Assembly (NCBI GenBank): GCA_030272155.1
Contig: CP126203.1
Span: 3,720,001 to 3,784,000, forward strand
Direction: 5' to 3'
Source: Tetradesmus obliquus
Lineage: Eukaryota > Chlorophyta > Chlorophyceae > Sphaeropleales > Scenedesmaceae
DNA: 64,000 nt
The notes under the pieces are model-generated. The model made no database searches. It had not been told where the DNA came from and was given only the letters and a program-made list of their open reading frames with translations. How positions within the stretch are numbered: the stretch's first letter is position 1; each line of letters opens with the position of its first letter. The position numbers and the translations under genes are program-made. Below, in pieces: positions 242-64,000 of the stretch.

Positions 242-858
242 CGCATGGCAGCCAGCAGGACTTCATGCAGCGGGACAACTGCATCATCGTGACAGAGGAT
301 GACGCAGTGACAGGCACAGCAAACAAATATGACAGCCACAGGTGAGTTAAACTGAAGCCTCAGCAGCAGCAGCAGCAGGGGCAGCAGCAGCGCAGTTGGC
401 AAATAACACAAAGTCACACCCAGTGTCTCTAGCACCAGCACTGGGCAACAGCACCAGCACCAGCGCAGCACGTGCGCCAGGGGCAGCATCTGCAGCAACC
501 TGTGCGGCTTCCTGCAGCTGTGCTCGTGAGTGCTGCAGTACGGCTGCACCTCTTCCTCAAAACGCGTTGCTGCTGCTGCTGTTGCTGCTGTAGGTTCCTG
601 CCTGAACAGCCGCGTGGGCTGCTGCACCGGGCCTTCAGCGTGTTCCTGTTCAACAGCGAAGGCAAGCTGCTGCTGCAGCAGCGGGCCACAGACAAGATCA
701 CCTTCCCTGGTAAGCCAGGCAGCAGCGGCAGCAGCAGCAGCAGCAAAGATTTTTCCGATGGACTAGATCACTCTCCCTGGTGCACAAGGCACCAGCGCCA
801 CCAGCAGCAGTGGCAGCAGCAGCAGCAGCGGCAGTGCGCAGCGCCTGTGGCATGTAGC

Positions 859-902
<44 letters not shown>

Positions 903-2955
903 ACAGCCACAGTCACCTTTCCTGTTGCACCTGCCTGCCTTACTTCTGCAGGCGTGTGGACCAACACGTGCAGGCAGCCACCCGCTGTACTGGCAGCAGC
1001 AACCAACATCTAAACTGCGGCAACGCCTGCTTGCCTGCCTGTTTCTTTCCTTCAGGCGTGTGGACCAACCCCTGCTGCAGCCACCCGCTCTACGGGCAGC
1101 AGCCAAACGAGCTGGACTGCTATTCCAATGCCTGTCTGCGTGCCTGTTCATGTTACCTGTGTTTGCAGGCGTGTGGACCAACACCTGCTGCAGCCACCCG
1201 CTCTACGGGCAGCAGCCAAACGAGCTGGACTGCTATTCCAATGCCTGTCTGCGTGCCTGTTCATGTAACCTGTGTTTGCAGGCGTGTGGACCAACACCTG
1301 CTGCAGCCACCCGCTCTACGGGCAGCAGCAAACCGAGCTGGACTGCTATTCCAATGCCTGTCTGCGTGCCTGTTCATGTTACCTGTGTTTGCAGGCGTGT
1401 GGACCAACACCTGCTGCAGCCACCCGCTCTACGGGCAGCAGCAAACCGAGCTGGACTGCTATTCCAACGCCTGCCTGCTTGCCTGTCCATGTTACCTGTC
1501 TTTGCAGGCGTGTGGACCAACACCTGCTGCAGCCACCCGCTCTATGGGCAGCAGCCAAACGAGCTGGATCCAGACGAAGCAATAGCAGACGCCAGCGTGC
1601 CTGGCGCCAAGGCAGCAGCAGTGCGCAAGCTGCAGCACGAGCTAGGCATCAGCCCGCAGCAGCTGCCGGCAGACAGGTTCAAGTTTCTGACGCGGCTGCA
1701 CTACTGCGCGGCTGACACGGACACGCACGGGCCGGATGCGGAGTGGGGCGAGCATGAGATCGATTACATCCTGCTCGCACAGGTGGGCTGCGGTTTTGGG
1801 GTTTGGCATGAATGGGGTTCGGTGTGGTTTTGTTTGTTATATCTGTTGTGCTGCGATCATCAGTCGCACCAGTGCCCGATGAGGAGTGGGGTGAGCATGA
1901 GATTGACTACAGGCAGCTGGCGCAGGTGGGGCTGTGTTGCAGTTTCAGTGTCTTCAAGTGTTGTTTGTGTGTGATGCGGTGTTGTGCTGGGACTATCTTA
2001 CCAGTTGCATGAGGTCGACTGTATTCTCTGATGGCGCAGGTGGGCTGCGGCTTGTGGTGTTGCTGTGTTGTGTGTGGTGTGGTGCGGTGCTGCAATGACT
2101 GTAGCAAGGTGCATGAGATTGACTACATTCTGCTGGCTCAGGTGGGCTGCACTTTTGGGGTTAGGGAGGTGTTGTTTGTGGTGCGGTGTGGTGCTTGGGT
2201 GATCATGCCGCGTGCGTGTCTACATCCTGCTGGCGCAAGTGGGCTGCAGTTTTACGCCGCTCTGTCCGTGGTGCAACACAGGCTGTCGTGAATCACCAGC
2301 CCAGCCCGCATCTATCATGCTCTGCCCTGCGCTGCATGTAAAAAACACATCCACGCACTTGTGCTCCATGTACTTGTGCTCTCACGCCACACGGAGGCTG
2401 ACGTAGACCAGCAGCCCAACCTGGAAACAAGTGAAAGCAGAGAAGTGCATAGGCAGCATCTGCCCTTTGCCCTGCGCCGCACTCACACGCGCTGTTGAGC
2501 ACTTGTGCTGCACTCACCTCACCAACTTGTGCTGCTCTCACCCCACCACACAGGCTGACGTGGACCTGCAGCCTAACTCTGACGAGGTAGCAGCAGTGAA
2601 GCACGTCAACCTTCAGGAGCTGCAAGCCACAATATTTTGCAACCAGGGCTGCCAAGCAATCGTATCAACATCTCATTTTATGTCCTGTGCTGTGCTTCTG
2701 GGACTGCACTCACCCCACACCACATCACAGGCTGATGTGGACCTGCAGCCCAACCCGGAAGAGGTAGCAGCGGTGAAGCACGTCGACTTGCAGGAGCTGC
2801 AAGCCATGATGGATCCTGCCAGCGGTTTGAAATGGTCGCCCTGGTTTCGAATCATCGCGCAGCATTTCCTGCCCACGTGGTGGGCAGAGCTGCAGACAAC
2901 GCTCAGCACGGACAAGCATGTGGAAGCGGGCACTATTCACCGGCTAGACTGCTGA
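242..2955 (+). CDS. IDI1: isopentenyl-diphosphate delta-isomerase (type I, Nudix fold), 5' partial, 4 exons seen
   Basis: Converts IPP to DMAPP for isoprenoid synthesis (carotenoids, chlorophyll tails, quinones). Exons: 242-341, 594-709, 1508-1782, 2731-2955 (TGA 2953-2955); all junctions are GT-AG and join in phase. Visible motifs: NKYDSH, LLHRAFSVFLFNS, the active-site segment TNTCCSHPLY with the catalytic Cys, the metal/active-site segment EWGEHEIDYI, and the C-terminal GLKSPWFR-like stretch followed by HFLPTWW. These match the eukaryotic type I family. About 239 codons are present. The first exon enters through an acceptor at 240-241, so a transit-peptide exon probably lies upstream; the ATG at 265 could serve a cytosolic form. 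Introns 2 and 3 are filled with copies of the flanking exon edges (separate entries). The exon model is strong; use of the final rather than an earlier acceptor copy is inferred from reading frame. Confidence 0.93.
952..1507 (+). repeat. IDI intron 2: five tandem copies of the 3' splice junction, 104/113-bp spacing
   Basis: The head of IDI exon 3 (starting GCGTGTGGACCAA) occurs at 952, 1056, 1169, 1282, 1395 and, intact, at 1508. Spacing is 104 then four times 113 bp. Each copy has about 45-60 bases of exon sequence preceded by a pyrimidine-rich stretch ending in CAG. Copies 2-5 stop after the codons for PNELD and run into intron sequence; only the 1508 copy continues into the rest of the exon. 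113 is not a multiple of 3, so using an earlier acceptor shifts frame. Confidence 0.95.
1864..2246 (+). repeat. IDI intron 3 start: about four degraded copies of exon tail plus 5' splice site
   Basis: The end of exon 3 (GEHEIDYILLAQ followed by GTGGGCTGC) ends at 1782. Diverged copies end near 1926, 2041, 2142 and 2240, each again followed by a potential GTGGG donor. They lie only downstream of the intact exon. Divergence differs between copies, which suggests successive events. Confidence 0.85.
2397..2640 (+). repeat. IDI intron 3 end: two partial copies of the last exon's head
   Basis: The last exon starts at 2731 with codons for ADVDLQPN. A copy with its own CACACAG acceptor starts at 2554 and stays recognisable to about 2632. 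A more decayed copy starts near 2397. Both lose similarity before the exon's end, so only the 2731 copy can encode the C-terminus. Confidence 0.88.
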
Positions 2956-5946: not shown

Positions 5947-5981
<35 letters not shown>

Positions 5982-9955: not shown

Positions 9956-10831
9956 GCAAGCACGTGCAGCAGCAGCGCTGGACGTCTGCATGCAGCACCA
10001 CCTGACTGCAGAAGATGCTGCCCGCCTATGGGCCAGCAGCCGATTGCTGCAGCAGCTGGTCAGCTCTCGGCTGAGCAGTGCGCTGCTGGTGCGCAGCGTG
10101 GCAGCAGCAGCGCAGGCAGCAGCAGCAGCACAGGCAGCAGCGGAAGCAGGAGCAGAGGCTGTCGCAGCAGCACATGCAGCACCATCGATCTCAACAGCAG
10201 CAGTTATGGCACTAGGCTTGATGTCATTTGCAGCAGCAGCAGCTGTTGAAGACACCAGCTTGGAGGCCTTGCGCTGGCTGCTGCGCCAGCCAGCAGTAAC
10301 AGCAGCCATGATCAACCAGAGCAGCCAGCAGCTGCTAGCGATCCCTGGTGTGCCGTTCCCTGCTGCAAAGGCACTTGTCAGGGCAGGCTTACGAATGCAG
10401 ATCACTCTGCAGCAGCTGGCGGCGCGTGCAAACGCATGTTTAGAGGGTTTTGAGGTGTGGGTGCAAGCCTTTGTAGCTGATGATGCGCTGCTGGAGGAGT
10501 GGGCTGCTGACCTTCCCGCAGAGCTGCGGGCTCTGTGCTGCTGCAGGCATTTGGGAGCGTGGTGTCCAGCTGAGCTGGTAAGCCTTAGGCTGCTGCTCTG
10601 TTTCAAAACCTCAGGCTGCTGCCGTTTCTCTTCCTCGCGCGCTGTGTAGTCTGACTTCTCTCAACTGCGCTTGCTTGTACACATGCACTGCCTGGCTGCC
10701 TTGGAAAGATCAAGACGAATAGCCTTCGCACACAACTGATGGAATCTGCTGTGGTGCTGCTGACTTTCAGCAATTTTATGAGAGAGCATGCTGCTGGGTG
10801 CTGTTGTCAACTGCAGTGCTGCTGCTGCCGC

Positions 10832-10912
<81 letters not shown>

Positions 10913-19100: not shown

Positions 19101-22100
19101 TGCAGACGCTGCAATGTTGTGCGCGCCAGGCGCACATCCCAACCAGTCCACCCACCCACATCTCACACGCATACACAAATAAGCAGCACACTCTTTCATA
19201 TTTTTGTTCGCGCACCTCCAGCTCCACCAGGTGGCTCCACTCCTCCTCATCTGAGCACCCTGCAAGCAGTACTCCCTGCGTCCTTGCTCGAATCGCCACG
19301 TGGCTTAACACATCCGTGCTGCTGCGCGTCAGCACTGCCACCACACCATCTGGGATGTCTTCCATGCCGCCTAGGGCCTGTGCCAGCACCACTGTAGGCT
19401 GGTCAAACGCTACACCCTGCACCCCCAGCAGGTCTGGCAGCAGCACCACCTTGCCTGTGGCAACCTGCACTTGGCTCACCACCTGCAGGCAACGCAGCAG
19501 GAGTCCGGCAGCAGCACAAAGTACAGCATGAATAACTCACAGGATGCAATATACCACACCCCATGATGCAGCACACACGCTAATTAGGTGATCACACGCA
19601 CAATAAAAAGCCTCACAGCATGTTCCAGAAGCTAGATGCTACAACACATCAGCTCTAAATGGCAGCAACACTGCACGAGACAGCTGGCACAAGCCGCCGC
19701 ACCTGCCAGCTGCTGGCGCCCGCAGCAGTCCGCAGCCGCGGCTCCAGCTCAGCCGCCAGCAGGCTGCCAACAAACAGCGCCTGGTCCCGCACCACCTCCT
19801 CAGAAAAGTTCAGAGTAAAGGCGGCAGGGATGCCACAGCGCAGCCCAAACAGCTCCGCATACGGCTGCAGCACACAGCAGTTGCAGAAAGCGTTAGCCAC
19901 ATACTAAAATTCAGCGTGTTGCGAAAATGCCGCATCGCAGCCTGAAGAGCTCCGCGTCAGTTTGTGCATCAGGGGTAAAACATCGGATGGCTCTGTGTTG
20001 CTAACTTCTCAGTGCACCAGACTGCAGATTGCATCTGCCAAATCCCATAGCTGCAGATCTCACCTGCACCAGGCTGCAGATCTCATCTGCGAAGGCACTC
20101 AGCGCCAGCGTGACGCGCCCCAGGGCTGCGCTGGCTGCCAGGCACCACGCACGGCTCCACCTGCAGGCAGCAGCAGCAGCAGCGACAGCAGCAGGATCAG
20201 GGCAGGAGCAGGCGGGTGTGGCGACAGCAGGAATGTACATGCATCGAAGCACCCATCCAAGCACAGACTGCCGCATGCCACAGAGTACATTGCGCAGTAC
20301 AGCTGCTGAACTGGTGGTGCTATTGTATAAGTATGTATTCACCTGTCTGGGCAGGTCCTGACAGCCTCCCATTGCGCTGAGACCAGCTCCAGCTCAGATG
20401 AGGTGCCCTGCAGGCGGGGCAGGCAACGGAAATGAACAAAGCTCAGTTGCCCAACATAGTAAGCGGTGTGTGAGCACAAAAGCGCAACAATGACTGGCAG
20501 GGAGAACAACTAAACAGCAGCTGCAGCCATTGGCCACACATCCGCCACAGGGTAAGGTAAGCGCTCTGAAAGGGCAGAGATTGCAGTGAGCAGCAACCGG
20601 CATGCAGCAACACCCCGCCGCCTAATTGCTGCAACTTGATTGAAAGTGAAACTTTGGTAATATGTTACAGTTTGAAAGAATGACGCACCGTCAGCGCCGC
20701 GTTGCCCAGCACCAGCCCCATCAGCTCCAGCAGGTCATCGCCTGACAGCGCTCTCAAACATGCCAGAAAGTCGACCAAAGGTATTTGGAATATGAGAATG
20801 GAATTAGAAAATGGATTTTGAAAATGCCATTCGAGAATAACAGTGTTATCACACGCACCGTCAGCGCCGCGTTGCCCAGCACCAGGCCCATCAGCTCCAC
20901 CAGATCATCGCCTGACAGTGCCCGCTTGTCCTGCCGCTCCACCAGCAGCCGCAGCCAGCTCTCCAGCGCAATGTCCAGCAGCAGCAGATCACGGCTGCTG
21001 CCGGGCGCCTGCGACAATCACAAAAAAAGCAGTGTAATGTGATGTTAGGTGCTTTTGAGCAGTGCTGAAAAGCAGCAGCCGCAGCCAGCTCTCTAGTGCA
21101 ATGTCCAGCAGCAGCAGATCACGACTGCTGCCGGGAGCCTGCGGCAACAAGTTCGTGCGGCAAGCAGTGCAGTGATCAGTGCTGACAGGCGGCAGGTGCT
21201 GCACAAACAAACGGTGCTGCACACCGCCCCAGCTACGTCGCATCAGGGCATCATGACTACCACCGCTGCTGCCGCTGCTGCTGCTGCTGCTGCGCCGCAT
21301 GCAATCCTCAGCGCTGCAAAAACGCTATAGCAACCACAAACAAAAAGCAGCCCCTACCTCGCAGTAGGGCTTCAGCCGGCGCCGCAGCTCCAGCGTCTTG
21401 CCGGGCGCCCACCAGGCATTGCGGTTGCCCAGCAGGTCATGCAGGTGCCACCTGCAGCAGCAAGCACCACAGAACAGGTATACTTCAACACCAACATCAA
21501 CACAGAAGCGTTGCGGTTGCCCAGCAGGTCGTGCAGGTGCCACCTGCACGCAGCAAAAGTGACAATACAGGGTTGCTAACATGGCAGTGCCGGTGGCGCC
21601 GTGCATTCTGACACAGCGTCACAATCGGCCAGCAAGCCGCACATGAACCACTTGGCAGCTAGAGGGCATGAACGGCCATGGGTGCAAGTGAGTGTGAGTG
21701 CTGTTGAGGGACGAAAAGTAACACAGCAAAGACATGACGTAACACACGCACCTGAGGTCAGGGTCCACAAAGCCCTGAGCACATGTCAGCGCGGTGTCCA
21801 GCTCAGCGCCGGAGTGGCAGGTCTTTAGCACCCAGTGGTAGTGCGAGATGGGAGGGATCAGCTGCGGCAGGTGCATCGGCAGCGCTGCAGCAACAAGCAG
21901 CAGCAGCAGCAGAAGAAGAAGAAGCAGATGAGGATGAGTGGAGGTGGTGGCAGTAGGATGGGAGGCACAGCAGCAGCAGCAGCAGCAGCACGGAATAGCG
22001 CAGAGCTGGGGAGTCCACATAGACTGCTGCAGCGCGTGCTGGTGTGTAATTGTGATGAATGGTGATGTAGAGAGTGTGGGGTGTATGGAAGCGCCCAGCT

Positions 22101-25100
22101 GGGGTCAGGAGTGTGACATGACCCGGTGGGTGATACGCTGACGTGGCAGCCTGTTACAAACTGCGACAAGACGTCAAAAATAACACATGCGGTTGGCAGT
22201 ACTTATACCCCCTGCGTGCCACCTGCCACTTCATACTTTCCACAATTTATCAAGAGCAGTTGAAAGACCCTGCATTGGCTTGTCCCAAGCCTCACACAAT
22301 TCAATCATAAATAGCATGTTACTGCACAACGTCCTGGTGACAGCTGCTGTGTTTGCTGCTGTCCTGGGATGACACTGTTCACGTGCGGTTGGCCTTCCAT
22401 GCAGATGCCATGGCGATCCGTTCCATTTATGATTGAAATCAAGGGCACCCTGTGAGCATCGCAACACATTGCTGCCTGCACTGCCCCACACTGTCACATA
22501 GGTTTTTCTTCACAGCAAGCACCTGTCTGCAAGACTGCAGCATCCATGAGCATGGATCATGCACTGCTCTCTGCAAATCACACTGCCCTCCACACAAAAA
22601 CGCACCTGTGATGGGGAGCAGCCCAAATCACACCTGTGATGGGCTGCTCCCAGCTTCCAGCTGCACACACAATCAACCCCCCCCTGCCCCGTTCTCACCT
22701 GTGATGGGCTGCTCCCAGCTCTCGATCTGCTCCTTGCTGAGGCCCTTCTCAGCCAGCACGCGCCACCTGCAGCAGCAGCAGCAGACAGCAGCAACGGCAG
22801 CAGGAGCATCAGCAGCGGCAGGAAGCGTGCTCTGTGAAGCAGCAGCATTGCGCAGCATGCATTTGACACAAAAGCAGCAAACACAGTAGCAAGCGCTGGG
22901 ACCTAACCGCCAAACCCCAACGCTACCCTCACCAGTCCTCATGGTCGGCGGAGCGCAGGAAGGCTAGGTAAGCCTCCGCGATGATAACACCACTCTCCCC
23001 TGAATCCCCAACCCCCTAAACTACAACCAAACCCTTCTCACCAGTCCTCATGGTTGGCGGAGTGCAGGAAGGCGAGGTAGGCCTCTGCAATGATGACGTC
23101 CTCTGGGCTGGTGGCCTGGTGCAGCTTCTGGTGCCACTGCTCCAGGAAGGGCTCATCCAGGCCCTGCAGCAGCCGGCAGCAGATGTAACGCGTTAACTGA
23201 CATAAGATAACATAACACAGCATTAGTCAATGATGGGGACACCGGAGAATAGATGTGAGTCAAGAGAGCGCGAGATACAGCCAAGTCTACAGAAAATCAT
23301 TGCATGCTGCCAGGAGAAACCCACAATGCAACATGTAACAACATTTGTAACGAACTCCACGATATGCTCACCCCGCGGTTGCCCTCCTTGATGCCGTGGT
23401 CCCTCATGATGTTCAAGATGCCCATGCGGATCTCATCCCCATTGCCGCCGCCCCTGCTGAGCTTGCCCAGCGTCATGCGCGCATACATGCGCACCGCAGG
23501 GTCGCTGCTGCTGCGGGCCTTCTCTGTGATGCGCTCCGCAACCTGCAGCAGCAGCAGCAGCGGCAGCAAGGACCAGTCAGGGGCAGGTAAGACACCGAGC
23601 ATACATGCGGCCCGCAGGATTGCTGCCGCTGGGAGCCTTTTCAAGTTCTGCTCCGCAATTTGCTGCAGGGCATACGATGCGGCAACTTGTCACACAACAA
23701 TTTGCCACCAGCCACAACACAAGCTGTGAATGCACCTCAAACTGCTGCCACCGACACCTGCAACCCTCCCGCACATGAAATGCATGTGCTGCCTGTCATC
23801 AAAGAAGTCCCACAAGTGCTGACAAACAACATTGCTGACCCCCCAACCAACCTGCTGCTGCAACCATGTGATATCCAGTGGCTGCTGGCTGGCAGTGCTG
23901 CCAGTCCCAGATCAAAACACACTTGACATCCTCAAAATATATTCTGATGTATTGATGGGATTATCAGCCCACCTGCTGCTGCGCCCATGTGATGTCGCGC
24001 GGCTGGTAGCTGAAGCAGCGCTGCCAGTCCAGCAGCCTGTTGCTGCTCAGGCGCAGCCAGGTGAACATAAATGACATGCCCGCGGCACCTGCAACAAAGA
24101 CAGCAAATGCTTTGTCAGTAAACAGGGTTCCAGAATTTCAGAGCAGGATAGCCACAGGAGAATGACCGCACAAGCAACACCAGCAGCACCGAACCATAAA
24201 AGCCTACCTGCTGCTTCCACATTACCCAGAAGCTCTGGCACTCGCTGCAGCCAATGCAGCACCCCACACCAGCAAGCCCAAACATACAAACAACAGCAGC
24301 ACCACACACAACTTACCCCACCTGCTGCCTCCGCATTGTCCAGCAGCTCCAGCACGCGCTGCAGCCTTTGCAGCAGGCCCCAGTGCTCAAAACCTCCCTC
24401 GACAGCCAGCACCCCTTCCACCAGGTCACCCAGGCAGCAAAGACACATGTGCTGCATCACAACCAGTTTCATAACAGGGTAGCCACAGGCGCACAAGCAC
24501 ACAGGCAACAGCATCACCACCCACACAGCAACACCCACCTGCGGCCTCTGCATTGTCCAGCAGCTCCAGCACCCGCTGCAGCCTGTGCAGCAGGCCCCAG
24601 TGCTCGTAGCCTCCCTCAGCAGCAAGCACCCCTTCCACCAAGTCACCCAGGCAGCAAAGACACACATGCAGCATTGCAGCAAAAACAACAGCAGCAACAC
24701 CCACCTGCTGCTTCTGCGATATCCAGCACCCGCTGCAGCCCGTGCAGCACATCACAGCAGCAAGCCCAAACATAACAATAGCACCAAACCATTAAGCCCA
24801 CCTGCTGCCTCTGCGTTATCCAGCAGCTCCAGCACCCGCTGCAACCTGTGCAGCAGTCCCCAGTGCTCATAGCCGCCCTCAGCTGCCAGCACCCCTTCCA
24901 CCAGGTCCCCCAGGCAGGGGCTACGCAGCTGCAGGCTGAAGTTGGCCCCGTGGTCCCGCACCCAGGCATCACTCTCAAGCTGATGCACCACAAAGACCAG
25001 CCTCTCGGGGCAAATCGGCTCTGGGAAGACCAGGGTGACACACCAGGGGGTGCCTGCTGCCACGCCTGGATACAGCTCTACTGCTGCTGCTGCTGCTGCT

Positions 25101-43073: not shown

Positions 43074-44213
43074 GCCTGCCGCAGTATGACCTGGAAGCAC
43101 ACACCAGAGCATGCTTTCTGGTGAGTTTCTCACAGCACATCCGGCGGCCCCGCTTGCAGCCGGCCGCCAGATGCCGTTTCAATAGCAGTAGCTCACTCGT
43201 CATGCTCCTCCGCGCCATGTCCATCACCTAAGCTGCCATCTTTCACTTTGTCTGCAGGCACGCCACAGTTAAGTATGGTATCCAACATGTTACACATGTT
43301 ACTCACTCGTCACGCTCGTCCGCGCCGTGTCCATCACCCAAGCTACCATCATTGACTTTGTCCGCAGGTGCACCACTGTAATATAACATGTTATTCTACA
43401 TGTTACACATGTTGCTCACTCGTCACGCTCCTCTGCGCCGTGTCCATCACCCAAGCTACCATCATTGACTTTGTCCGCAGGTGCACCACTGCAACATGAC
43501 ATGTTATTTTACATGATACACATGCTGCTCACTCGTCACGCTCCTCTGCGCCGTGCCCATCGCCCAGGCCGCCGTCATCGACTTTGCCCTCAGGCGCACC
43601 ACCGGGGCGGCTCAGCAGTTTCCTCCCTGCACCAACCTGCACCAGGCATCAACACATACAATGCACATCAAGTGATGACGTAGTGGCGCTGCTGCTGCTG
43701 CTGCTGCTGTTGTTGTTGCTTGTGCTCCAGCAGCCTCCTGCCTGCACTGACCTGCACAGGCAGCGTGGGGTGCAGCGCAACGCAGTGTCAGAAATTGTGA
43801 TTACCACCTGCCTGCCGCTGCTCCTGATGGTGCACCATCGGGGCGGCTCAGCAGCTTCCTGCCGGCACCAACCTGCACAAGTATTGCGGGGTGCAGTGCA
43901 ATGCAGTGTCAGCGCAACAGCGTTTTCCTGGCTTTCACGGCTCCTGTTGCGCATCCTGCAGGGTGGATCAACAGCCTCCAATTCACACCAACCTGCAAAA
44001 GCCGCGCAGCGCATTCTGTAGTGCCAGCGAGGAATATTCCAAACTGCTGCTGCTGCCGCTACTGCTGCTACTGCTGCTGTTTGTACTGCTGTAAACATCC
44101 AGGTCTCTAGCAACGGCCTGTGGCATGACCCTCAAGCAAAGCGTGTAGAGTTTCACGTGGTCTGCGGACGTATGCTTGTAGCAAGCGTATGTCTGCTTCC
44201 AGCTTTTTCCGGA

Positions 44214-44254: not shown

Positions 44255-45890
44255 GTTCATCACTGATGCTGCAGCTGTTAGTGAGCATGTTGCCTCTGCT
44301 TTTGCATACGCTGCCAACAAGCGCGTGCTATGAGTAGTACATACGGACAAACGTGTTCACACAAGGTGCTGATGCTTCACATGTAACCGTCAGCTTGCAT
44401 CACCCGTCAACAGCCAGGCGCTGCAGCAAAGTACACAGCTGCTTTCTTGTGACACAGCACTCACAGTAGCAGGCGGCATCGCAACTGGTGCTGTGGTAAG
44501 CGCTGGCAGGGTGAACGTCAAAGTGAAGAATGGCTTCGAAGTGAAAAATGGCTTGCTGATTGTGATGGTCTGTGATTCCCAGGTTGGCCTATTGTGGTCA
44601 ACAGTGGCGGCCCCAGCAGGTGCTGCTGTTGCTGCAGCAGCAGCCGGTGCAGGCGCACCAGCAGCAGCTACTGCAGACTGCTTCAAGGGCTTCAGCACAT
44701 TGTCAATCACGTGTATCTCAGCCTGCAATCATTGGTGGCAGCAGCACACATTGGCAGCGGCACATGTTGGCAGCAGCAGACATTGGCATCAGCAGATGTG
44801 CTGCAGGTAGCAGTGCCAATTTAGCAAAGGCCTGAGCACGCTGTTTGGCACTTGCACCTCAGCCTGCATGTTTTGTGGGACATGTGATTGGCAGCAGCAA
44901 CAGCTGTATACAAGAGGAAAGGGGAGTGAAGGCGGCTGAGCAGTGGCACACTGGACAAAGACATGCACTGTGTTCAAGCAGATGAGGTAGAATTGAGCAG
45001 TGGCACACTGGACAAAGACATGCACTGTGTTCAAGCAGATGAGGTAGAATTGAGCAGTGGCACACTGGACAAAGACATGCACTGTGTTCAAGCAGATGAG
45101 GTAGAATTCAGCAGTGGCACACTGGACAAAGACATGCACTGTGTTCAAGCAGATGAGGTAGAATTGCTGGATTACATTGACAATCACGGACTACTTGAAT
45201 TCAAGTAAGGTGCATATAACCAGCACAGTGCAATGGTTGAACGAAATGATGGCGAAGCGTCTCCTGGCAGTGACAAAGCCGCTGCACTGCTCATTGGTCT
45301 CACCTTACTGACAAACATGTTCGGGCTGAGCACCTTGGCTGCTGAGCCGCCGCTCAGGGTCACATATGCCGCATAGTTTTGCAGTCCTGAGGCCTTGTGT
45401 ACCCCACCCTCCCTGCGGACACACAAGAATGCTTTTGCAGCTTCATGCTGTGCATCTGACAATTGTATGCATTCCGGTTCATGTTTCAAGGTTTGCGTGT
45501 GATCTAGTAAGCACAGCTGTCTGCAGTTCCAAAACTGGATCACTCTCTGTTTGTAGATGACGCTAAGGCCTGGCCCTCCGACACTGGACAGCTCAGCGCC
45601 ATAGATGATGAGGGAAACCGAGCCTCCCTCAAAACCCAAACAAAGACCGTGTAGAATAGATGAATTATGCTGTGTTGAGGGGCGTGACATATCCCTTGCA
45701 GGTGCATTGTGGTCTATACATGTCATGTGCATGTTGTAGCAAGCAGCCACCTGCAGTGCAGAAGGCATGAAAAAAGCTCACGGTTTGTAGGTGATGCTCA
45801 GCCCTGGCCCTCCCGCGCTGGCCAGCTCAGCGCCCTGCTTGAAGCCAGCAGGAATGCTCAGGTCCCTGCCAGCAATCACATGGTTCCTGT

Positions 45891-48990: not shown

Positions 48991-49057
<67 letters not shown>
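48991..49057. repeat. CAG tract, about 22 triplets, intergenic
   Basis: Pure CAG repeat between the FAS1 and COQ8 genes. No linked exon recognised. Confidence 0.95.
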
Positions 49058-49352: not shown

Positions 49353-49421
49353 CATTACATTACATTACATTACATGCTCCACTCAACGAGGAGTGGGAAC
49401 CCCAGTCAGGAGCCAACGAGA
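49353..49421 (-). mobile_element. 5'-truncated retroelement copy (69 bp) with 6-bp target duplication
   Basis: Starts with five TTACA-type units, then the same GCTCCACTCAACGAGGAGTG end as the other two copies, cut off after AACGAGA. Flanked by GGTTTG at 49347-49352 and 49422-49427. Confidence 0.85.
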
Positions 49422-49427
49422 GGTTTG

Positions 49428-51061: not shown

Positions 51062-53971
51062 TGCCCTTGCAACAGCAGCCCAAGAAGCAGCTGAGGGAGC
51101 GTAGGTGGGTTGGCTGTGTGTTGTGCATTGCAGGAAGCTGTTGCAACTACACGGCCCCTGTTGGTCTACTGTCAGCAGGGGACGCGGCATTTGCACAGAA
51201 GTTGCAGTGTCTTGTTGGTGCAGTAACTGAAACCTTATACCTGCAGCAGCTGCTAGTACAGCCTTGACTTCTGTGACTGGCTGTTCTGTTGCACAGCCTC
51301 CTAGTTGTCTGGCAAGCTGTCTGAATGGTGTTCACCGCCTGACATTGCTGCTCTGCCCTATGTCATAAACAAACACCTACCTTGATGCCGCACAGGGTGC
51401 CATCCACACAGATCGGCAGGGCCTTTGGATTTGCAAGCATGGGGGCCAGCCTCATTCTCGGCTCATTCACAGACAGCATCGCCAGATCCCTTGGCGGCGG
51501 CAGCAGCAGCAGCAGCACTGGCAGCAGCAGCAGCGGCGGCAGCGGCGCGTTATATAACAACTTCATAACGGAGTCAAACGCTGAGCGGCTGGCGAATGCG
51601 CTGTGCCGCATGCGCGGCGCTGCGCTGAAGATCGGGCAGATGCTGAGCATACAGGACGAGACCGTGCTGCCGCCGCAGGTGCAGCTTGTTGCGGCTTCCC
51701 TGGATTCTTCTGAGTGACTTTATTTCTTTATTTTTTATGTATTTCTTCTCTTTTCTTGCGAATTCATGCCCTGCAGCCTGCTCCAGGGTTAGCTGCAATG
51801 CAATGTAGTCCTGGATGTTGACCACCTCAAAAATTACAATATTCGTGCAAGTTGCAGGTGCATGTTGGTGCGCACGTGGCGTGCATGTCACGTGGATTGC
51901 ACACATCTGCACAAGCTTGTTTTAAACTGCAGATTCAGGCAGCGCTGGAGCGCGTGCGCGCAGGCGCAGATGTGATGCCCCGCAGCCAGCTTAAGCAGTG
52001 AACTGATGGTGCATGCTCTGCTGCTGCGCTATACCCCGCTTTGTACTGCAGATCTAGGCAGCTCTGGAGTGCGTGCGCGCAGGCGCTGATGTGATGCCCT
52101 GCAGCCAGCTGACAAGGCAGGCATGTGCCCAGGCACCAACCCCACTCATCATGCTCTTTTGTTGTGTGCTCTACTGTCTGCTGCAGATCCAGGCGGCACT
52201 CGAGCGTGTGCGCGCAGGCGCTGATGTGATGCCCCGCAGCCAATTGGAAGGGCAGCTGCGCAGCGAGCTGGGTAGGGACTGGGAGGCACGTGTGGCAGAG
52301 TTTGATGCTGAGCCAAGGGCTGCCGCCAGCATTGGGCAGGTTCACGCGGCGCTGCTGCATGACGGGCGCCAGGTTGCGATGAAGATCCAGTACCCAGGTG
52401 GGCTATCTTTCTTTTGGTTTATGTTGAGATTATTGTTTCAGCTGCGATTTATGAGGTTGTGTCGCATGCCGGGCGGCAGCCAGCTTGATGGACAGCTAAA
52501 CAATGAGCTAGGTAGGGACTGGGAGGCACGCGTGGCAGAGTTTGATGCTGAGCCGAGGGCAGCCGCCAGCATCGGGCAGGTGCACGCGGCGCTGCTGCAT
52601 GACGGGCGGCAGGTGGCGATGAAGATCCAGTACCCAGGTAGGCTGTCCTATGGATGCCATGCACTTTTTAGTCCTTTTTGTGCTGATGATAAGGCTATTA
52701 TGACTGCTGCCACTGCTGCTGTCGTTGCAGGTGTTGCGCGCAGCATCGAGTCTGACGTGGACAACCTGATGCGGCTGATCAGCATCGCCAACATCCTGCC
52801 CAAGGGCATGTACGTGGAGAGCGCTGTCAAGGTGGGCGCAGCTGGATCTATTTCTTTAGGTGGTTGTGGATGTTTGGATCATATGTGGATCTTGGATCAT
52901 ATGTGGATCTTGATGTGCTGCATCTTGACCACATATTGAGCCTGATTGTATCTGGATTCTGCCCAAGGGCATGTACGTGGAGAGCGCCGTCAAGGTGCGC
53001 ACGTACACCATGATCTGTGTTATGTGTATATCTAGGGCTCAAATGAACCCTATAAGTTCTATATGCTGCCAACCCTGCCCAAGAGCATGTACGAGGATGG
53101 TGCTGTCAAGGTGGGTGGGATGTACATGGCGGTGCTTTCTTGGCCTTGTAAAGTGAGCTTTGGTCATTGAACTCGCCAGTGCAAGCCATGGTGCAGGCAA
53201 CCTTTTATCGCCCTTTATCTGCATCTTCATTGCCAGCTGTGGTGCCTCCTGCCATCTTCAGTGCAAGCCGTGGTCCATCCTGCTGCTTCGTCGTTACTTA
53301 AACCGTGCTGCAGCCAACCACTCAACGCCCTTTGAGCAGGCATGATCTGTGTCTTGTGTGGCATACATGCTGCTGCATACTGCTGCAGGTGGCCAAGCGC
53401 GAGCTGGCGCTGGAGTGCAACTACACGTACGAGGCCGCAGCGCAGCAGCGCTTCAGGCAGCTGGTGGCAGCAGATGCTGAGCTGTCACGGGTGTTCTATG
53501 TGCCGGAGGTTATTCCGGAGCTGTCGAGTCAACAGGTGCTGACGACAGAGTGGGTCAACGGCGTCACCATTGACAAGGTGCGGCTAGGGCATATGGTTTA
53601 GGGTTGAGGGTTCAAGATCAGTGGTTCTTCAGGGTCAAAGTTTCACTCCGTGCGTCTAACGTCATCCATGTCTAAGGTCATTCATGAGATTTCCAACCAG
53701 CAACGACTGTCCTGCCAGCTTCAAGTTACAATGCAACACAACAGGATGCAACACAACAGGAACTATCTGTGCTGTGTTGCAGCGCTGGCTACTAGTCAAG
53801 ATACCTACATCATAAAGCTCCGCTGCTGTCGCTGCCGCCGCTGCTGCTGCTGCTGCTGCTGCTACAGGTGGCGCAGTTGGACCAGGCCACGCGTGACCTG
53901 GTGGGCACGTGGCTGCTGCGGCTGACGCTCAAGGAGCTGTACGACTGGCGCTTCATGCAGGTGGGTTTTAG

Positions 53972-56233: not shown

Positions 56234-57735
56234 ATGAAGAAGAAAAGCAGCAAGGCGCCCAAGGGGCGCTCGCACCTGGATGAGCTCGCCATGACTGACT
56301 CAGATAACGAAATAGAAGACGGGTTTGCAGCAGGCAGCGACCGTATAGCTTTGGAGAAGGGAGCAGCAGCAGGCTCGGACGATATCGATGAGGAGGCCGT
56401 GTACGATTTAGATGATGAGGTAAGCAGATTCCGCCGAACTTTGGTAATGCAGCTCTACGTGGTTGAGCTGCTGTTGTATCGAGAAAGGTTACCCTGCCAT
56501 ACAGCACTGCAAGCAGCACTGCAGCAGCCAGCAGCCAGGCTGTGCAGTGCACTTCATCCCAGCAACGCTGACACCCTCATGCTATAGCAACATCATGCCT
56601 TCTACTTCTTTAAACGGCCAGCTTGCGCAGCAGGGCATGCATGGCTGTGCAGAGCGCTGTTGTGCTTGTTGTAGTGCATTGCTTTTGCACAGCCGTAATC
56701 CTTGTACACCCACGGAGTGCTGGCGCACCCTGTGAGAGCAGCTCTCAGCAGGCAAAGTAGGCACAGTGCCATCGGCTGCAGCCAGGAGAGCTACAGCAGG
56801 TGCAGTGCTGTAACAGCAGGCACATCCACAGCAGGCGCTGTGCTGTCACTGTCAATATTCTTGGCAGTCTCCTGGTACAGGACGAGGACTGCAGCAGCAA
56901 TGGAGGTGGTGATGGCCTGTGCGGCCAGCCCCTGTGTATGTCAGCAACAACCAATGTGCAGTGGATACTCTTCTTCCGCCTAAAAAACTCAAATCGCCTG
57001 TTGATTTGCTTGCAGGATGAGGATGACAGTGATGATGATGACATTGATGATGATGAGGCTCTGGAGGAGGCGCTGCTGCAGGGCGGGCAGATGGCGCAGC
57101 GTGAGTGATTCAGTTTGCGCCTGCATTGCAGCTGTTGTGGTTTCTGCTTTGGTTAGCTACTGCCTCTAAGGTGGGGGCGCTGCTGCAGGGCGGGCAGATG
57201 GCACAGCGTGAGTGCCTTTGCTTTGCACCTGAATAACAGCTGCACCTGTTGGTGTGCTTCGTGGGGTACTGCATTAAAGCTCGCATGCGTGCATGTAGAG
57301 GAGGCGCGCTGCAGGGCGGGCAGATGGCGCAGCGCGAGCGGCCTCAATCTGCACTTCATTTGCAGCTGCACCTAGTTACTGCTACGGTAGCTAAGCTGGC
57401 ATGCATGTACAGGAGGCCCTGCTGCAGGGCAGGCAGATGGCACAGCGTGAGTGCCTTGTACTTGCACTCGTATTGCAGCTGCGACTTGTGGTTGTTACAG
57501 AGTTGAGCTGGCATGCATGTACAGGAGGTCCTGCTGCAAGGCGGGCAGATGGCACAGCGTGAGTGGCCTTATCAGTTTGCGGCACCTGTCTGGCTGCTGG
57601 CGTGTATCTGCGCTGCATGCAACCAGCGGCGTGGTGGTTATTCCCAGCTGCCGGTTATGTCTGCGCGTGCAGCAAAAGTGGACAACGAACGTGCATGCTT
57701 GGGTGATGCGTGGCAGCTGTGCAACAACACTGACT

Positions 57736-57769: not shown

Positions 57770-60700
57770 AGTGGCAAAGCAGGCTCGCTACCTCGAGCAG
57801 AAGCTGAAGATCCAGCGGGGCGAGGCAGATGAGGATGGTGAGGAGCAGGAGGAGCAGCAGCAGCAGCCGGGGCTGAGGGACAAGCTGTGGGGGGCCAACA
57901 AGCGCGCATACTACCAGGAGGAGGAGCAGGTGGGCTTGTAAATTATTCACAGTTATCTTCATTTCATTTCATCATTCAAATTAGTTTGGCGCCAGTGGCA
58001 GTTGCTCGTATTTGTAAAGCACAAGCGTGCTGACCGCCAGGAGGAAGAGCAGGTGGGGTATGGTCGTGCTGTTTTTGTTTGCGGTTGACTGTGTTCGTAA
58101 GTGCAGCTGTATGCAGCATGTGAAGCTGTGTGTTTCTGTCGAGTCGCCGCATGCAGCCTTTTAGCGATGACCGATTTCCTGTGTGGGCTGCGTGACAAGC
58201 TGTGGGGGGCCAGCAAGCGCGCTTTCTATTAGCGCGCTTACTATTAGGAGGAAGAGCAGGTGGGGACAGGTTACTCGGCAGAACATACATTGATGGAATC
58301 GACTATCATGCACTACAGCTCATGATGATAATTGCCACCACATGGCCTCATCACGCATGCTGTGTGGTTTCCCACTGCTGCTGCTGCCGCTGCTGCTGCT
58401 GCCGCTGCTGCTGCTGCTGCTGTCACAGGAGCCGTCAGACGATGAGGCCTTGCAGGAAGAGGAGCAGGAGGTGCGGCGGCTGCAGCAGCAGCAGGCAGCA
58501 GCACTGGATGACGATGACTACGGCCTACCCAGCAGCAGCAAGCAGCAGCAGCAGCAAGGGGAGCCCCTGATGGGTGACCTGGCAGCAGCAGGGGCGGCTG
58601 GTGCTGCTGGCGTGGAGGTTGAGACAGTAGCAAAGGACCTGGGCGCTCTGACTGCAGGTGCGTTGGGGTAGAGAGAAACGATTGCGGTTGTCAGCTTGAG
58701 ATTGCTGTGCAGGTGTGGGGCGCTGCAAGGCAGCAGTGCTGCAACAGCTGAATGGTGTAAGGGCAGGGGCAGCAGCATTCGCATTTGCAGCAGCGCTGGT
58801 GCCGGCCTGCTTGCTGCCTGTCAACAAGTGTGGCGGTCAGCAGCAGCTCTAAACCACGGCAGCACCTATCCCCTGAGTCAGCATCACTTCTGTCCAGCTA
58901 CAATCACTGCAGCACTCACGCCGCTACTTGTCTTGCCTCTTGTGCGTTTTTGGCCGCTGCTGCGCCCAACGCCATAAATAACAAAATGACAACACTCAAA
59001 CACAGAGGAGCAGCTGGCAGTGGTGATGGCAGACGCCCCGGAGCTGCTGTCACTGCTTGAGGAGCTGAAGGCCTGCCTGGCAGAAGTACGCAGCAGAGTG
59101 GGGCCGCTGCTGCGTGAAGTTTCAGCAGGAGGCCTGGCCACATCAGCAGGGCTGAGCTATCTGGAGGCCAAGCACCTGCTGCTGCTGCAGTACTGCATGT
59201 GCATCGTGGCCTACCTGATGCTCAAGGCTGAGGGGCGTAGCGTGAAGGATCACCCTGTGATCGGCAGGTGAGGCACTGCAGTTGGTGTCTTGCTGCTAGG
59301 AGTAATTTGTTTTTCTGTGCACCCTGGACCTACATGCAGCATGCTTGCAGAGTACGCGAGGAGTGATGCGTGCTGTTGGTCACCTGGTGCAAAGGTCTGC
59401 AATGCATGCATCAAAAGGGTGAAACATGCTGCTATGTTAAGGTTGCGTCATTTGGGTGGTTGCTCAAGGCTGAGGGGCGCAGCGTGAAGGACCACCCGGT
59501 GATCTGCAGCTGAGTCGCTGCAGTTGTCGCTGATAAGACTTTAAATATATGGGCACCCTGGCCCTGCATGCAAAGCTTTGCAAAAGACATGAGGTGTGTT
59601 GGGTGCTGTTGATCTGCACAAATGGTTGTGTGCTGCATCTTCATGTTGTGCATGCACAGGCTGGTGCAGCTGCGCGCACATCGAGATGCTCTGGCCCATC
59701 TGCTGCAACACTCTCAGTCACCATCCAATCACCTGATTACTTTGCATGTGCTTCTCATGTTGTGGCTGCAGGCTGGTGCAGCTGCGTGCGTACATCGAAA
59801 AGATCTGGCCCATCAACAAGCAGCTGTCTCGTTGCATTTGAAAATTGCCTGACAAAAGTGTGTTCCTCTGTTGTGGCTGCAGGCTGGTGCAGCTGCGCGC
59901 GTACATTGAATAGACCAGCCCCGTCTTTTCAACACTCTCAGTATAATTGATCATGTTCTTAAACGTTGGATGTGTGTGTTTGTATCCTGCCTGGCTGCAG
60001 GCTGGTGCAGCTGCGGGCGTACATTGAAAAGATCCGGCCCATCGACAAGCAGCTGTCCTACCAGATTGACAAGCTGCTGCGGGCCACCAGCGTAGCACAA
60101 GCACAGGCAGCAGCCGACGCAGGGGCAGGGGCAGCAGATGAAGCAGAGGCTGGTGCTGCTGCTGCTGCTGCTGGTGGTGATGACGCGCTGCGCTACAGGC
60201 CCAACCCTGGGGCGCTGATTGCCAAGGCGCCCTTGCTGGGAGATGCAGCGGGTGAGCAGCAGCAGCAGCAGAACGGCTGTGTATATTTGTTTGCAGGCTG
60301 TTGGGTATTGGTGCTGGAAAGGAGCAAGACAGGGCCGCTCTCTTTGATTTTGATGCAACGAACTGCTGGCCTTGGCATCTGCTGTTGGCTGCTGTCCTGC
60401 AACTTCATTGTGCTGTGCTTGCATTGTGCCTTGTGCACTGTGCAGGTATTGAAGGTACTGCTACGGTACCACGCAAGCAGGAATCAACTGCCTCTCACTG
60501 TCTTGCCCAATGTGTCTCTCTTTCTTGTGCTGCAGGCATGGAGGCTGCTGGTGGTGGTGTGTACCGCCCACCAAAGCTCAACCCTGTTGCCATGGAGGCA
60601 GGAACTTTGTGCACCTGTTTATATATTGTCCTGCGTTTTTTTTGCGCCGCAGGCATGGAGGCTGGTGCGGCGTGTACCGCCCACCAAAGCTCAACCCTGT

Positions 60701-63700
60701 TGCCACGCAAGCAGGAATCAACTGCCACTCACCTTCTTGCGCAATTCATCTCTGTTTCTTGTGCAGCGCAGTATAACATGGAGCGCAGTATAACATCTGT
60801 GTCTTGTTCTGTCTTTGATTTCCGCGCCGCAGGCATGGAGGCTGCTGGTGGTGGCGTGTATCGCCCGCCAAAGCTCAACCCTATTGCCACGCAAGCAGGA
60901 ATCAACTGCCGCCCACTATCTTGCCCAATGTGTCTCTGTTTCTTGTGCTGCAGGCATGGAGGCTGCTGGTGGTGGCATGTATCGCCCACCAAAGCTCAAC
61001 TTTGTTGCCACCAAGCAGGAAACACTGCCACTCACTATCTTGCCCAATGTATCTCTGTTTCTTGTGCTGCAGGCACGGAGGCTGCTGGTGGTGGCGTGTA
61101 CCGCCCACCGAAGCTCAACTTTGTTGCCACCAAGCAGGAAACACTGCCACTCACTATCTTACCCAATGTATCTCTGTTTCTTGTGCTGCAGGCATGGAGG
61201 CTGCTGGTGGTGGCGTGTACCGCCCACCAAAGCTCAACTTTGTTGCCACCAAGCAGGAAACACTGCCACTCACTATCTTGCCCAATGTATCTCTGTTTCT
61301 TGTGCTGCAGGCACGGAGGCTGCTGGTGGTGGCGTGTACCGCCCACCGAAGCTCAACTTTGTTGCCACCAAGCAGGAAACACTGCCACTCACTATCTTAC
61401 CCAATGTATCTCTGTTTCTTGTGCTGCAGGCATGGAGGCTGCTGGTGGTGGCGTGTACCGCCCACCGAAGCTCAACTTTGTTGCCACCAAGCAGGAAACA
61501 CTGCCACTCACTATCTTGCCCAATGTATCTCTGTTTCTTGTGCTGCAGGCATGGAGGCTGCTGGTGGTGGCGTGTACCGCCCACCAAAGCTCAACCCTGT
61601 GGCCATGGAGGAGGACAGGGCGCTGTCAGCCAAGGAGCGGCGAAAGCTGCTGGAGGCGCAGCGCCGCGCGCAGCGCAGGTATGCCGCAGGCTGAGCAGCA
61701 ATCGGCAGCCTGAGCAGCAACCGGCAGCCTGCGCACTGATTGGCAGCCTGAGCAGCAGTAGGCAGCTGCAACGGGTTGAGTAGACAGGCAAATGTTGCAG
61801 CGCTGCTGCAGATGCGCTCGTTGACCTGTCTCATATCCCTGCAAGGTGGATGTGATGCGGAAGAGCAGCTTGCTGGTGCGCTCAAATGAGGTTTGTGCAG
61901 ACACGCCGGCACATGCACTCGCACTCACACACCTGCTTGTATGTTTCCGTACTGCTGCTCTGTTTGTGATGCAGCTTCGTCATGCGCGGAATGGCCGAGG
62001 AGCTTGCTGGCGCACCCCAAGTTGGGTTCACACAAGTCTGCAGGCACTTCCTGTCACTCATGACCTTGCTGCTTATGTACGCTTCTGCTGGTGTGCTGCA
62101 GTTCTGTTATGCGCGAGATGGCCGAAGAATTGGCAGGCGCACCCGAGGAGGTCCGTGCCGAAATCGCAGGCATGGAGTCTGCTGCGGCAGTGGCCACGCG
62201 GCAGCGGCTGGAGGCGCGCAGCGCTGCAGAGGAGGAGCTGATGCTGCGCGTGCCGCTGAGCAAGCAGGAGGCGAAGAAACTGAAGATGCAGCGCAGGTGG
62301 GCAAGGTTGGGGCCAGTATGGGTGGTTTAGGGCGGTTGGAGGAGCAGCTTTTTGGTGGCGAGTGTGGAAAGTGTAATCGGAGGGTATGTGTGGTATCTGG
62401 TATGTGACTTGCCGGTTCAGCAGCGCCAGTGACGCGGCAGCGGCTGAAGGCTTGAAAAGCAGCAGAGGAGGAGCTGATGCTGCGTGTGCCGCTGAGCAAG
62501 CAGGAGGCAAAGAAGCTCAAGATGCAGCGCACGTTGGTGTTGTGTTTGGGCGAGAATATGGGTGGTTTAGGGCGGTTGGAGAAGCAGTTTATTTGATGGC
62601 GAGTGTGGTAAGGTGAGCGGAGGGTATGTGTGGTGTCTGGTATGTGAATTGGCGGTTCAGCGGCGGCAGTGACCGCGCGGCAGCCCCTGAATGCTTGAAA
62701 TGCACAGAGGAGGAGCTGATGCTGCGCGTGCCGCTGAGCAAGCAGGAGGCAAAGAAGCTCAAGATGCAGCGCAGGTGAGTGGCTTTGAATTGGGGCAGGG
62801 AGTGCAAGGGCTCGTGATGGGCACGTGTAGGGCAGGAGAAGATGGATGCTGCGCGTGCCGCTGGGCAGTCAGGAAGCAAAGAAGCAAATGTTAAATATCT
62901 TGATATCTCTTGTTTGCCCATCTTCCACTGCCTGTTGCTGCCGGCGTCACAGACTTTGCAGATGACGTGGCAGACCTGGTGGCTGCATCAGGGGAGGGCG
63001 GTGACAAAGCGCCTGTCTGGCACTGCTGCGCTCACAAACAGTGTGTTGTGTTGTGTGCCGCAGGGCTGGGCTGTCTGGTGCTGCTGGGCTCACAGACTTT
63101 GCTGATGACGTGGCAGACCTGGTGGCTGCATCAGGGGAGGGCGGTGACAAGGGCGGCAGCCTGGCTGCGCTGTACGGCAAGAAGCAGCTGTCACAGAGAT
63201 ACGGCGCTGACCTGGCAACGCAGCAGTCCAAGGTGTGTGCAGCGCAGCTCATTCCACTGCATGTGATCAGTGCCGACATTGTGGGCACTTGCACTCTTGC
63301 GTGTGGCTTCGTCAGCGCCCACATCCATGTCTATGCTTCATCTATGCTGCCGACTGCTGCGGATGTGGTGCGAGATGCTGACGTGCTGCCCCTCACGCCG
63401 CTGCACGAGAGCAGCAGGGTGTGCTTGTTCAAGCTTGTTTTTGTGGCCCCATATCTGATTATTTGATTCCTGTGCCTCTCGTGTGCTGCTGCTCTGCAGA
63501 TGCGTTCCGGAGATGCTGATGTGCTGCCGCAGAAGCCTCTGCACGAGCGCCGCGCGGCCTTCGACGCAGTCGCCGCGCGCCGCGAAGCAGCCGCAGCTGA
63601 CTCCGACGGTTTTGAAGACGCAGCGGACATGGGCGGCAAGCAGCGCAAGCGCAAGCAGAGTGCAGCTGACTTTGGTGGGGAAGAGGATGAGCTGTATGCA

Positions 63701-64000
63701 GCCACAAAAGCGGCAAAGGCGTCGCTTAAAGCAGAGAAGCGACGTAAGCAGGAGCAGCAGCAGCAGCTGGAGGTGCCGCTTGCTGAGCCTGAGGCTGTGG
63801 GGCAGCGCAAGATCAGCTACGAGATCGAGAAGAACAGGGGCCTCACGCCACACAGGTGCGGCTTTTTGCGGTTATGGTTGTGTTTGTTGTGATTGGTTTC
63901 ATGTGTGTCTGTCTCGTTGGCAGCGACTGTGCCTGATCCGGAGCCGGTGGGGCAGCGCAAGATCAGTTACGAGATAGAAAAGATCAGAGGCATCGCACCA
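56234..64000 (+). CDS. UTP3: Sas10/UTP3 small-subunit processome protein, 11 exons seen, 3' partial
   Basis: Sas10/UTP3 is a nucleolar U3 snoRNP-associated factor for 18S rRNA maturation. Exons: 56234-56419, 57016-57100, 57772-57929, 58429-58657, 59006-59267, 60001-60251, 61549-61678, 62102-62296, 63064-63232, 63500-63855, then beyond; phases agree throughout. Features in order: basic start MKKKSSKAPKGRSHLDELAM, acidic tracts (EDDSDDDDIDDDEALEE), coil LAKQARYLEQKLKIQRG, the Sas10/Utp3 domain LLSLLEELKACLAEVRSRVG to YLEAKHLLLLQYCMCIVAYL and LVQLRAYIEKIRPIDKQLSY, YRPPKLNPVAMEEDRALSAK, SKQEAKKLKMQRR, and the C-terminal signature RKISYEIEKNRGLTPHR. The signature plus the internal domain separates it from neuroguidin/LCP5. 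The basic C-terminal end lies past the window. The last 70 bases are an echo of the preceding exon's tail. Introns here hold the densest echo arrays. Confidence 0.92.
57177..57560 (+). repeat. Sas10 intron 2: four copies of exon 2 tail plus donor
   Basis: The exon 2 end (CTGCTGCAGGGCGGGCAGAT, then GGCGCAGC before GTGAGT at 57101) recurs with donors at about 57208, 57338, 57448 and 57560. All keep the sequence CAGC/GTGAG or CAGC/GCGAG, giving up to five competing 5' splice sites. Confidence 0.95.
58030..58261 (+). repeat. Sas10 intron 3: two copies of exon 3 tail plus donor
   Basis: The end YYQEEEQ before GTGGGC at 57930 recurs at about 58034-58053 and 58197-58261. The second copy extends back to DKLWGA and contains an inner partial repeat (GCGCGCTT-CTATTA twice). 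Confidence 0.85.
59467..59925 (+). repeat. Sas10: exon 5 tail echo and three exon 6 head echoes
   Basis: 59467-59512 copies the exon 5 tail (KAEGRSVKDHPVI). Head copies of exon 6 (CAG then GCTGGTGCAGCTGCG) start at about 59660, 59770 and 59881; the intact exon starts at 60001. Spacing is 110-120 bases. Confidence 0.93.
60536..61548 (+). repeat. Sas10 intron 6: eight tandem copies of an exon head with acceptor, mostly 119-bp
   Basis: The exon 7 head (GCATGGAGGCTGCTGGTGG, then codons for YRPPKLN) starts at 60536, 60653, 60833, 60954, 61073, 61192, 61311, 61430 and, intact, at 61549. Spacing: 117, 180, 121, then five times 119 bp. The last five units are nearly identical, including the stretch CACTATCTTGCCCAATGTAT before TGCTGCAG. 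Two sub-types alternate (GCATGGAGG and GCACGGAGG), so higher-order duplication of pairs is likely. 119 is not a multiple of 3, so choice of acceptor changes frame. Long open frames cross the whole array in all three plus-strand frames. Confidence 0.97.
61974..63420 (+). repeat. Sas10: echoes around exons 8 to 10
   Basis: Head copy of exon 8 at 61974-62035 (FVMRGMAEELAGAP). Tail copies of exon 8 (EEELMLRVPLSKQEAKKLKM) at about 62466-62532 and 62706-62776, plus a decayed one at 62845-62885. Head-region copy of exon 9 (DFADDVADLVAASGEGGDK) at 62951-63006. Head copy of exon 10 (GDADVLP) at about 63357-63420. Confidence 0.92.
63930..64000 (+). repeat. Sas10: tail echo of exon 10 at the window edge
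   Basis: Repeats the segment for PEAVGQRKISYEIEKNRG with changes (IEKIRGIAP). Cut by the window end. Confidence 0.85.

Follow-up and report, generated by a model that had tools for sequence, protein, structure and literature searches.

In a 64,000-nucleotide stretch of the genome of the green alga Tetradesmus obliquus, a member of the Scenedesmaceae in the order Sphaeropleales, class Chlorophyceae (contig CP126203.1 of GenBank assembly GCA_030272155.1, positions 3,720,001 to 3,784,000 of the forward strand; "the window" below means this whole stretch), many introns contain partial copies of the exons that border them. Copies of an exon's head lie upstream of the intact exon and copies of its tail lie downstream; we call both echoes. 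Frequent short tandem duplications, acting together with splice-site choice and selection, probably explain this layout in T. obliquus. A sequence-only reading of the window had proposed random tandem duplication filtered by selection, and our results support that proposal: near-neutral change in the echoes and an echo-free protein encoded on short contigs both fit it. The two classes of unit length, near 120 and near 240 bases (b), the speed with which the intron part of a copy ceases to resemble its source, and the annotation errors described below go beyond that first reading.

Partial exon copies at splice junctions

Exon models were built by hand and checked for reading phase in six genes of the window: IDI, an SKI8/WDR61-type WD40 gene, ABC1K, and SAS10 on the plus strand and a GWD-like and a FAS1-type gene on the minus strand. 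Phase is consistent for all modeled exons but one, SAS10 exon 3, whose true start lies one base later than in the model table. The labels IDI, SAS10, and WD40 (WDR61/VIP3) agree with named protein matches, while ABC1K, GWD, and FAS1 are presumed from the look of the sequences. A gene finder trained for the purpose on the hand-built exons over-predicted (48 genes and 1694 exons in its last round) and served only as an aid to exon placement.

A search of each exon against the DNA within 3 kb gave 77 matches, which were accepted as echoes if they were direct, had an E value of at most 0.01, lay no more than 20 b from one end of the exon, and did not fall on another exon. Sixty-two were retained; the 15 discarded matches had E values above 0.01 (6), were inverted (6), or lay away from the exon end (3), and a limit of 5 b instead of 20 b leaves 55 copies. 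The 62 copies comprise 31 heads and 31 tails and form 35 families (16 head, 19 tail). As the sequence-only reading had stated, heads are found only upstream of the intact exon (31/31) and tails only downstream (31/31), and none of the 62 echoes in the six genes is a whole-exon copy or lies on the wrong side. The pattern that it had described, with roughly 45 partial exon copies in eight genes on both strands, is real, and the number of genes fits too: besides the 62 copies in the modeled genes, self-BLAST of the window revealed similar repeats in two further regions outside the six models (about 5.2 to 8.07 kb and about 34.2 to 36.4 kb). Head families are present at 16 of 45 acceptors. Seventeen of the 19 tail families sit at the 45 counted donors, one follows the last WD40 exon, which has no donor, and one lies at SAS10 exon 10, whose donor is outside the 45. 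At least one echo occurs in 27 of the 45 introns. Identity to the exon covers a graded range of 76 to 98%, the copies of any one array keep a constant spacing, and full tandem units with the intron part included are seen at IDI exon 3, SAS10 exon 7, and FAS1 exon 7.

Local direct repeats of this sort occur genome-wide and are no peculiarity of the window. We sampled 25 stretches of 10 kb (250 kb) at fixed positions on 17 contigs of the 104.7-Mb assembly and found 94 clusters of local direct repeats, not all of which are exon echoes, compared with 43 in the window; clusters were present in 20 of the 25 loci and absent from 5. Local matches in sample and window together are almost exclusively direct (335, versus 9 inverted). 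The smallest spacing per cluster falls into two size classes, 75 to 180 b in 93 clusters (median, 120 b; standard deviation, 22 b) and 223 to 264 b in 14 (median, 241 b), with a single cluster at 192 to 222 b and another at 40 to 74 b. Among the 35 curated echo families, six are spaced 233 to 242 b and none 182 to 232 b. The sample also holds satellite-like arrays (L024 1-3959 and 4086-6042, L032, and L012 1-1135) with units of 274, 351, 297, and 191 b, and runs of CAG/GCA or CTG/TGC triplets are very frequent in exons and introns on both strands (e.g., window 10817-10917 and 48992-49057).

It is highly improbable that the echoes are an assembly artefact in which two haplotypes or repeats were set side by side. 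Similarity confined to exons, with changes at third positions, would suit joined haplotypes too, but the graded identities, the constant spacing in arrays, the strict head/tail rule, and the local direct repeats met again in 20 of the 25 loci sampled all speak against such joining. At L018 591-755, the two members of a sampled pair differ at one site over 55 b of exon and show no similarity in their flanks, which is unexpected for diverged haplotypes, and this pair also speaks against a hybrid origin of the copies, which we had considered as an explanation of exon-only similarity.

We give next to no credence to an origin of the echoes from mobile elements, for instance by insertion of an introner. 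Introners reportedly generate introns across many eukaryotes (PMC9860276), but each echo matches its own neighboring exon. Among the window self-matches listed, 10 are more than 5 kb apart, and 6 of these are triplet repeats and 2 belong to one dispersed ATTAC element; thus, in this window self-comparison, we found no similar insert shared across many unrelated genes. A dispersed element about 70 to 100 b long, with ATTACATTACATTACATGCTCC near its start, has copies 97 to 100% alike at 40211-40314, 46379-46475, and 49351-49423; the copy at 46379 adjoins a FAS1 head echo.

The largest arrays precede IDI exon 3 and SAS10 exon 7. IDI exon 3 (1508..1782, plus strand, in a phase-consistent model) is preceded by five head echoes (952-1000, 1056-1116, 1169-1229, 1282-1342, and 1395-1455, the last four spaced 113 b) and followed by tail echoes at 1874-1925 and 2111-2141, with weaker ones near 2020 and 2225 recognized by eye; IDI exon 4 (2731-2955) has two head echoes within 2397..2629, found by the exon search. 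SAS10, also on the plus strand, carries eight head echoes of exon 7 (61549-61678) within 60536..61486, most of them spaced 119 b. Its exon search further yielded three head echoes (59660..59921) of exon 60001-60251, three tail echoes (62417..62883) of exon 62102-62296, and one head echo (62928..63021) of exon 63064-63232, and tail echoes of exon 57016-57100 at 57170..57333 belong to an array that a tandem-repeat finder extends to about 57570. In ABC1K (plus strand), exon 52187-52397 has two head echoes within 51933..52120, one of them interrupted by a stop codon when read in the frame of the exon, and a 162-b tail echo (52476..52637) at a spacing of 240 b, and the exon search found two tail echoes (52956..53110) of exon 52731-52831. 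WD40 exon 2 (29355-29547, plus strand) has a head echo at 29122..29235, spaced 233 b, and the exon search gave two tail echoes, at 29619-29667 and 29730-29787. On the minus strand, GWD-like exon 24802-25252 has four tail echoes within 24208..24749 (self-BLAST and exon search), the intact GWD-like exon 20859..21008 has a head echo at 21073-21138 and a tail echo at 20689-20751, and FAS1 exon 43533-43626 has three tail echoes within 43197..43489 and a head echo at 43829-43860.

Splice-site use and decay of the echoes

Tandem duplication accounts for the one-sided layout in a simple way. When an intron end and an exon head are duplicated together, the downstream copy is the one that runs on through the remaining exon, and its acceptor is used, which strands the other copy upstream; tails are the mirror image. 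One-sided placement therefore follows from tandem duplication plus selection for an intact protein and calls for no junction-directed machinery, and it does not count as a separate piece of evidence. In the scheme that we propose, short tandem duplications, mostly of 90 to 150 b with a second class near 240 b, would arise frequently, by break repair or replication slippage, and would be fixed by drift. Where the unit spans a splice junction, the copy joined to the rest of the exon would stay in use and the inner copy would turn intronic, leaving the protein unchanged and the intron longer by one unit. Units within exons or covering whole exons would mostly break the protein and be lost, stranded copies would decay without coding constraint, and unequal exchange between copies may enlarge arrays. 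An exception to the loss of within-exon units is an in-frame array in the sample (L028 7844-8399), where a 114-b unit (38 codons), similar in size to the echo units, is repeated nearly five times inside an apparent exon and is tolerated in coding sequence.

Three protein records join the intact exons without insertion. The IDI protein P0002 (source tag lgn) is identical over its 230 amino acids to the protein of the intact IDI exons, and two proteins that come from other T. obliquus records, P0121 (SAS10) and P0202 (WD40), agree at 99% with the intact-exon models. Exon joints are thus unchanged in all three proteins, and the introns seem to have gained only length from the echoes. The 90%-identity cluster that P0002 represents comprises 10 sequences, carried by 6 contigs of no more than 1963 b each, and the IDI gene spans 2691 b from the P0002 start codon to the stop (265-2955). 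Because these contigs are shorter than the gene, they presumably derive from spliced RNA, and an echo-free protein encoded on them means that the echoes can be skipped.

Changes within echoes are nearly neutral and nearly free of coding constraint, while the intact exons are constrained. We polarized single changes between intact exon and echo in families with two or more echoes. Those assigned to intact exons are distributed 6:3:24 over codon positions 1, 2, and 3 (26 synonymous, 7 nonsynonymous), versus 25:25:39 in echoes (34 synonymous, 55 nonsynonymous), and it is on this difference that the inference of near freedom from constraint rests. In the 36 coding-like pairs of the independent sample, differences at the three codon positions number 103:99:177.

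These counts also bear on whether the echoes serve as alternative exons, functional and held under coding constraint, a possibility that we regard as improbable. Some pairs do differ at third positions only (ABC1K exon 8 tail, 7/7; GWD exon 9 head, 4/4; L021 6882, 6/6), seven high-identity partial pairs of the sample show a ratio of 7:7:28, and both deposited models of this assembly that we examined use an echo as an exon. The third-position-only pairs are exceptions, however: constraint as a general rule, which such single pairs had suggested, is ruled out by the polarized counts and by the sample, where 47% of all differences fall at third positions. Moreover, the 62 window pairs contain 4 stops and 35 indel columns, the 36 sample pairs contain 6 stops, and P0002, P0121, and P0202 include no echo.

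The two deposited models, both on the contig that holds the window, are probably errors of annotation. OEZ86_009316 (IDI) has 32 extra residues, which are reproduced by adding 1169-1264, an echo plus a stretch of intron, to the intact exons, and OEZ86_009320 (WD40) has 33, reproduced by adding 29689-29787, which contains the second tail echo of that gene's exon 2; each of the added stretches keeps the reading frame and has no stop codon. Public T. obliquus protein sets thus probably hold at least two false internal repeats from translated echoes.

Intron flanks and the apparent preference for junctions

Several results weigh against tandem duplication filtered by selection. At equal neutral rates, the intron part of a copy should still align wherever the exon part does, and the observed loss of flanks is not what equal decay predicts: an intron flank is recognizable (z score above 3) in only 26 of 62 intact-echo pairs. 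A stricter comparison began with 37 pairs at least 90% alike whose match covered less than three-quarters of the spacing and kept 23 after in-array pairs were removed; flank similarity reached a z score of 4 or more in 5 of these 23 two-copy pairs, with 1 in a left-right control. Geometry predicts many more intron-only units than are seen (a single one of the 35 clusters has no exon contact), the pairwise differences in the 62 window pairs are somewhat high at third positions (93:71:255), and the scheme does not account for the class near 240 b. A decayed, hidden middle copy as the source of that class reached a z score above 4 in only 1 of 14 cases and is no general answer. Between one echo and another, flanks are recognizable (z score above 3) in 29 of 60 pairs.

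The loss of flanks points either to very fast indel turnover of introns or to an exon part refreshed by conversion or template switching. Under the latter alternative, which we consider possible, though less likely than not, the constrained exon overwrites or re-duplicates its echo after the first duplication, so that junctions become standing copy sources while intron parts drift off. Eighteen of the 23 two-copy pairs have exon parts 90 to 98% alike and no flank similarity at a z score of 4 or more (pairs without flank resemblance include GWD exon 9 and L018 591-755, the latter with 98% identity across 55 b), as expected of conversion tracts of high identity within older flanks, though indel turnover could give the same pattern. 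WD40 exon 2 shares 98% identity with its far tail echo and 86% with the near one, two of the eight echoes in the SAS10 exon 7 array keep the exon part next to different upstream intron sequence, and exon-touching units are in excess; each of these would suit recopying. On the other hand, the flank is still homologous at L019 5475 (z score, 9.7) and weakly so at L014 210 (z score, 4.4), and exon and intron parts are equally diverged in the young, homogenized part of the SAS10 array. The contrast between that young part and the two older copies fits exchange between copies. At L014 210-708, two neighboring putative exons share about 95 b right after their acceptors and then differ; we dropped this locus as a case of exon identity with unrelated introns on account of its weakly similar flanks. 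A bolder version, which we think rather unlikely, would make exon edges standing templates, each exon refreshing and multiplying its own echo, with junctions as hot spots of a copying process quantized in size (near 120 b and near 240 b), from which both the growth of introns and a supply of in-frame exon duplicates would result.

The sequence-only reading had held that an excess of junction-spanning over purely intronic copies would argue for a junction-directed mechanism. The excess is there, and large. We repeated the count of exon contact with a single self-BLAST, since an earlier comparison of 35 families with one intron-only case had mixed two search sensitivities. Thirty-five of the 43 window clusters fall in the six genes (including a FAS1 cluster, 43188-43602, that overruns the end of its gene model), and exon contact amounts to at least 15 b in 33 of them (two of which meet the last exon of WD40 at its end), to 10 b in one, and to none in one, the intron-only cluster at 44937..45166 on the minus strand (57 b repeated four times). 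When the observed unit sizes are placed at random in the six genes, junction units are expected to make up 41% (present introns) to 59% (echo-free introns) of tolerated units. A junction-directed step, though possible, does not follow from this, because junction units, constrained on one side, stay recognizable longer, whereas old intron-only duplications fade sooner, and the excess is partly such a detection effect.

Full-length units give a similar picture. By eye, the 32 units from window and sample divide into 19 junction, 1 intron-only, 1 in-frame exon-only, and 3 unclear units, along with 8 that are satellite, intergenic, or beyond a stop codon, so that 19 of 32 units include both intron and exon sequence. 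Restricting the genic full-length units to those with an identity of about 90% or more leaves five junction units, one intron-only, one exon-only, and one unclear, too few young units to decide the question. An automatic junction score is unspecific, with 6.5 to 7.3 sites per kb at threshold 8; it finds a junction in the first copies of 20, 17, and 13 of 31 full-length units at thresholds 6, 8, and 10, compared with fractions of 0.557, 0.428, and 0.284 in random stretches, and 15 of the 19 junction units classed by eye score at least 8.

Known duplications and intron growth

Tandem duplication across an intron-exon boundary is already known in the form of single events, as excerpts of two published accounts describe (PMC4974935, PMC3443670). 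In the potato RdRp gene, as here, the tandem unit straddles the boundary, and some of the exon copy on the upstream side turns intronic; unlike here, where many events seem to lengthen existing introns, a single event there made a new intron with a donor drawn from exon sequence (PMC4974935, in the part consulted). Intron gain by tandem duplication of AGGT-containing exon segments likewise combines local duplication with splice-site choice and leaves the protein unchanged, as excerpted, whereas the T. obliquus unit spans an existing junction and brings along a native donor or acceptor (PMC3443670). Novel Drosophila introns formed by sliding or tandem duplication resemble the present case in that tandem duplication alters the exon-intron layout and differ in that the excerpted account concerns novel intron positions (PMC2891723).

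The mutational step itself may have parallels as well. Among the literature matches listed, none describes a genome in which junction duplication is a main form of intron growth and units have two preferred sizes. Work on paired nicks in plants is reportedly related to the small tandem duplications that arise from break repair. Repair of breaks with overhangs of 43 to 50 b yields small tandem duplications that, like ours, are direct, local, and tandem, but these are mostly under 100 b in the excerpted report, unlike the classes of about 120 and 240 b found here (PMC8355091).

Summed over the six genes, the 45 introns have a length of 21,264 b, and the spans of echo units within them add up to 8161 b, or 38%, which is an upper figure for the detected units since it assumes that each whole spacing is duplicated sequence. 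Removing the echo units lowers mean intron length in these genes from 473 to 292 b. A published table (PMC5966456) puts intron length at 462 b in T. obliquus; its values for another four green algae are 230, 302, 284, and 270 b. Echo-free mean length thus comes into the range of the other algae, a striking agreement, if one drawn from six genes only. The suggestion that duplication is a main source of intron growth here is supported in that echo units make up a large part of intron length, and junction-spanning short tandem duplication may contribute heavily to the growth of introns in T. obliquus.

Intron growth is usually credited to transposons or slow indel drift, and the echoes would offer a countable process. 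They also carry a warning, in that gene predictors take echoes for exons and annotation has already been misled. Finally, T. obliquus would provide a natural system for asking how splicing picks between near-identical sites about 120 b apart.

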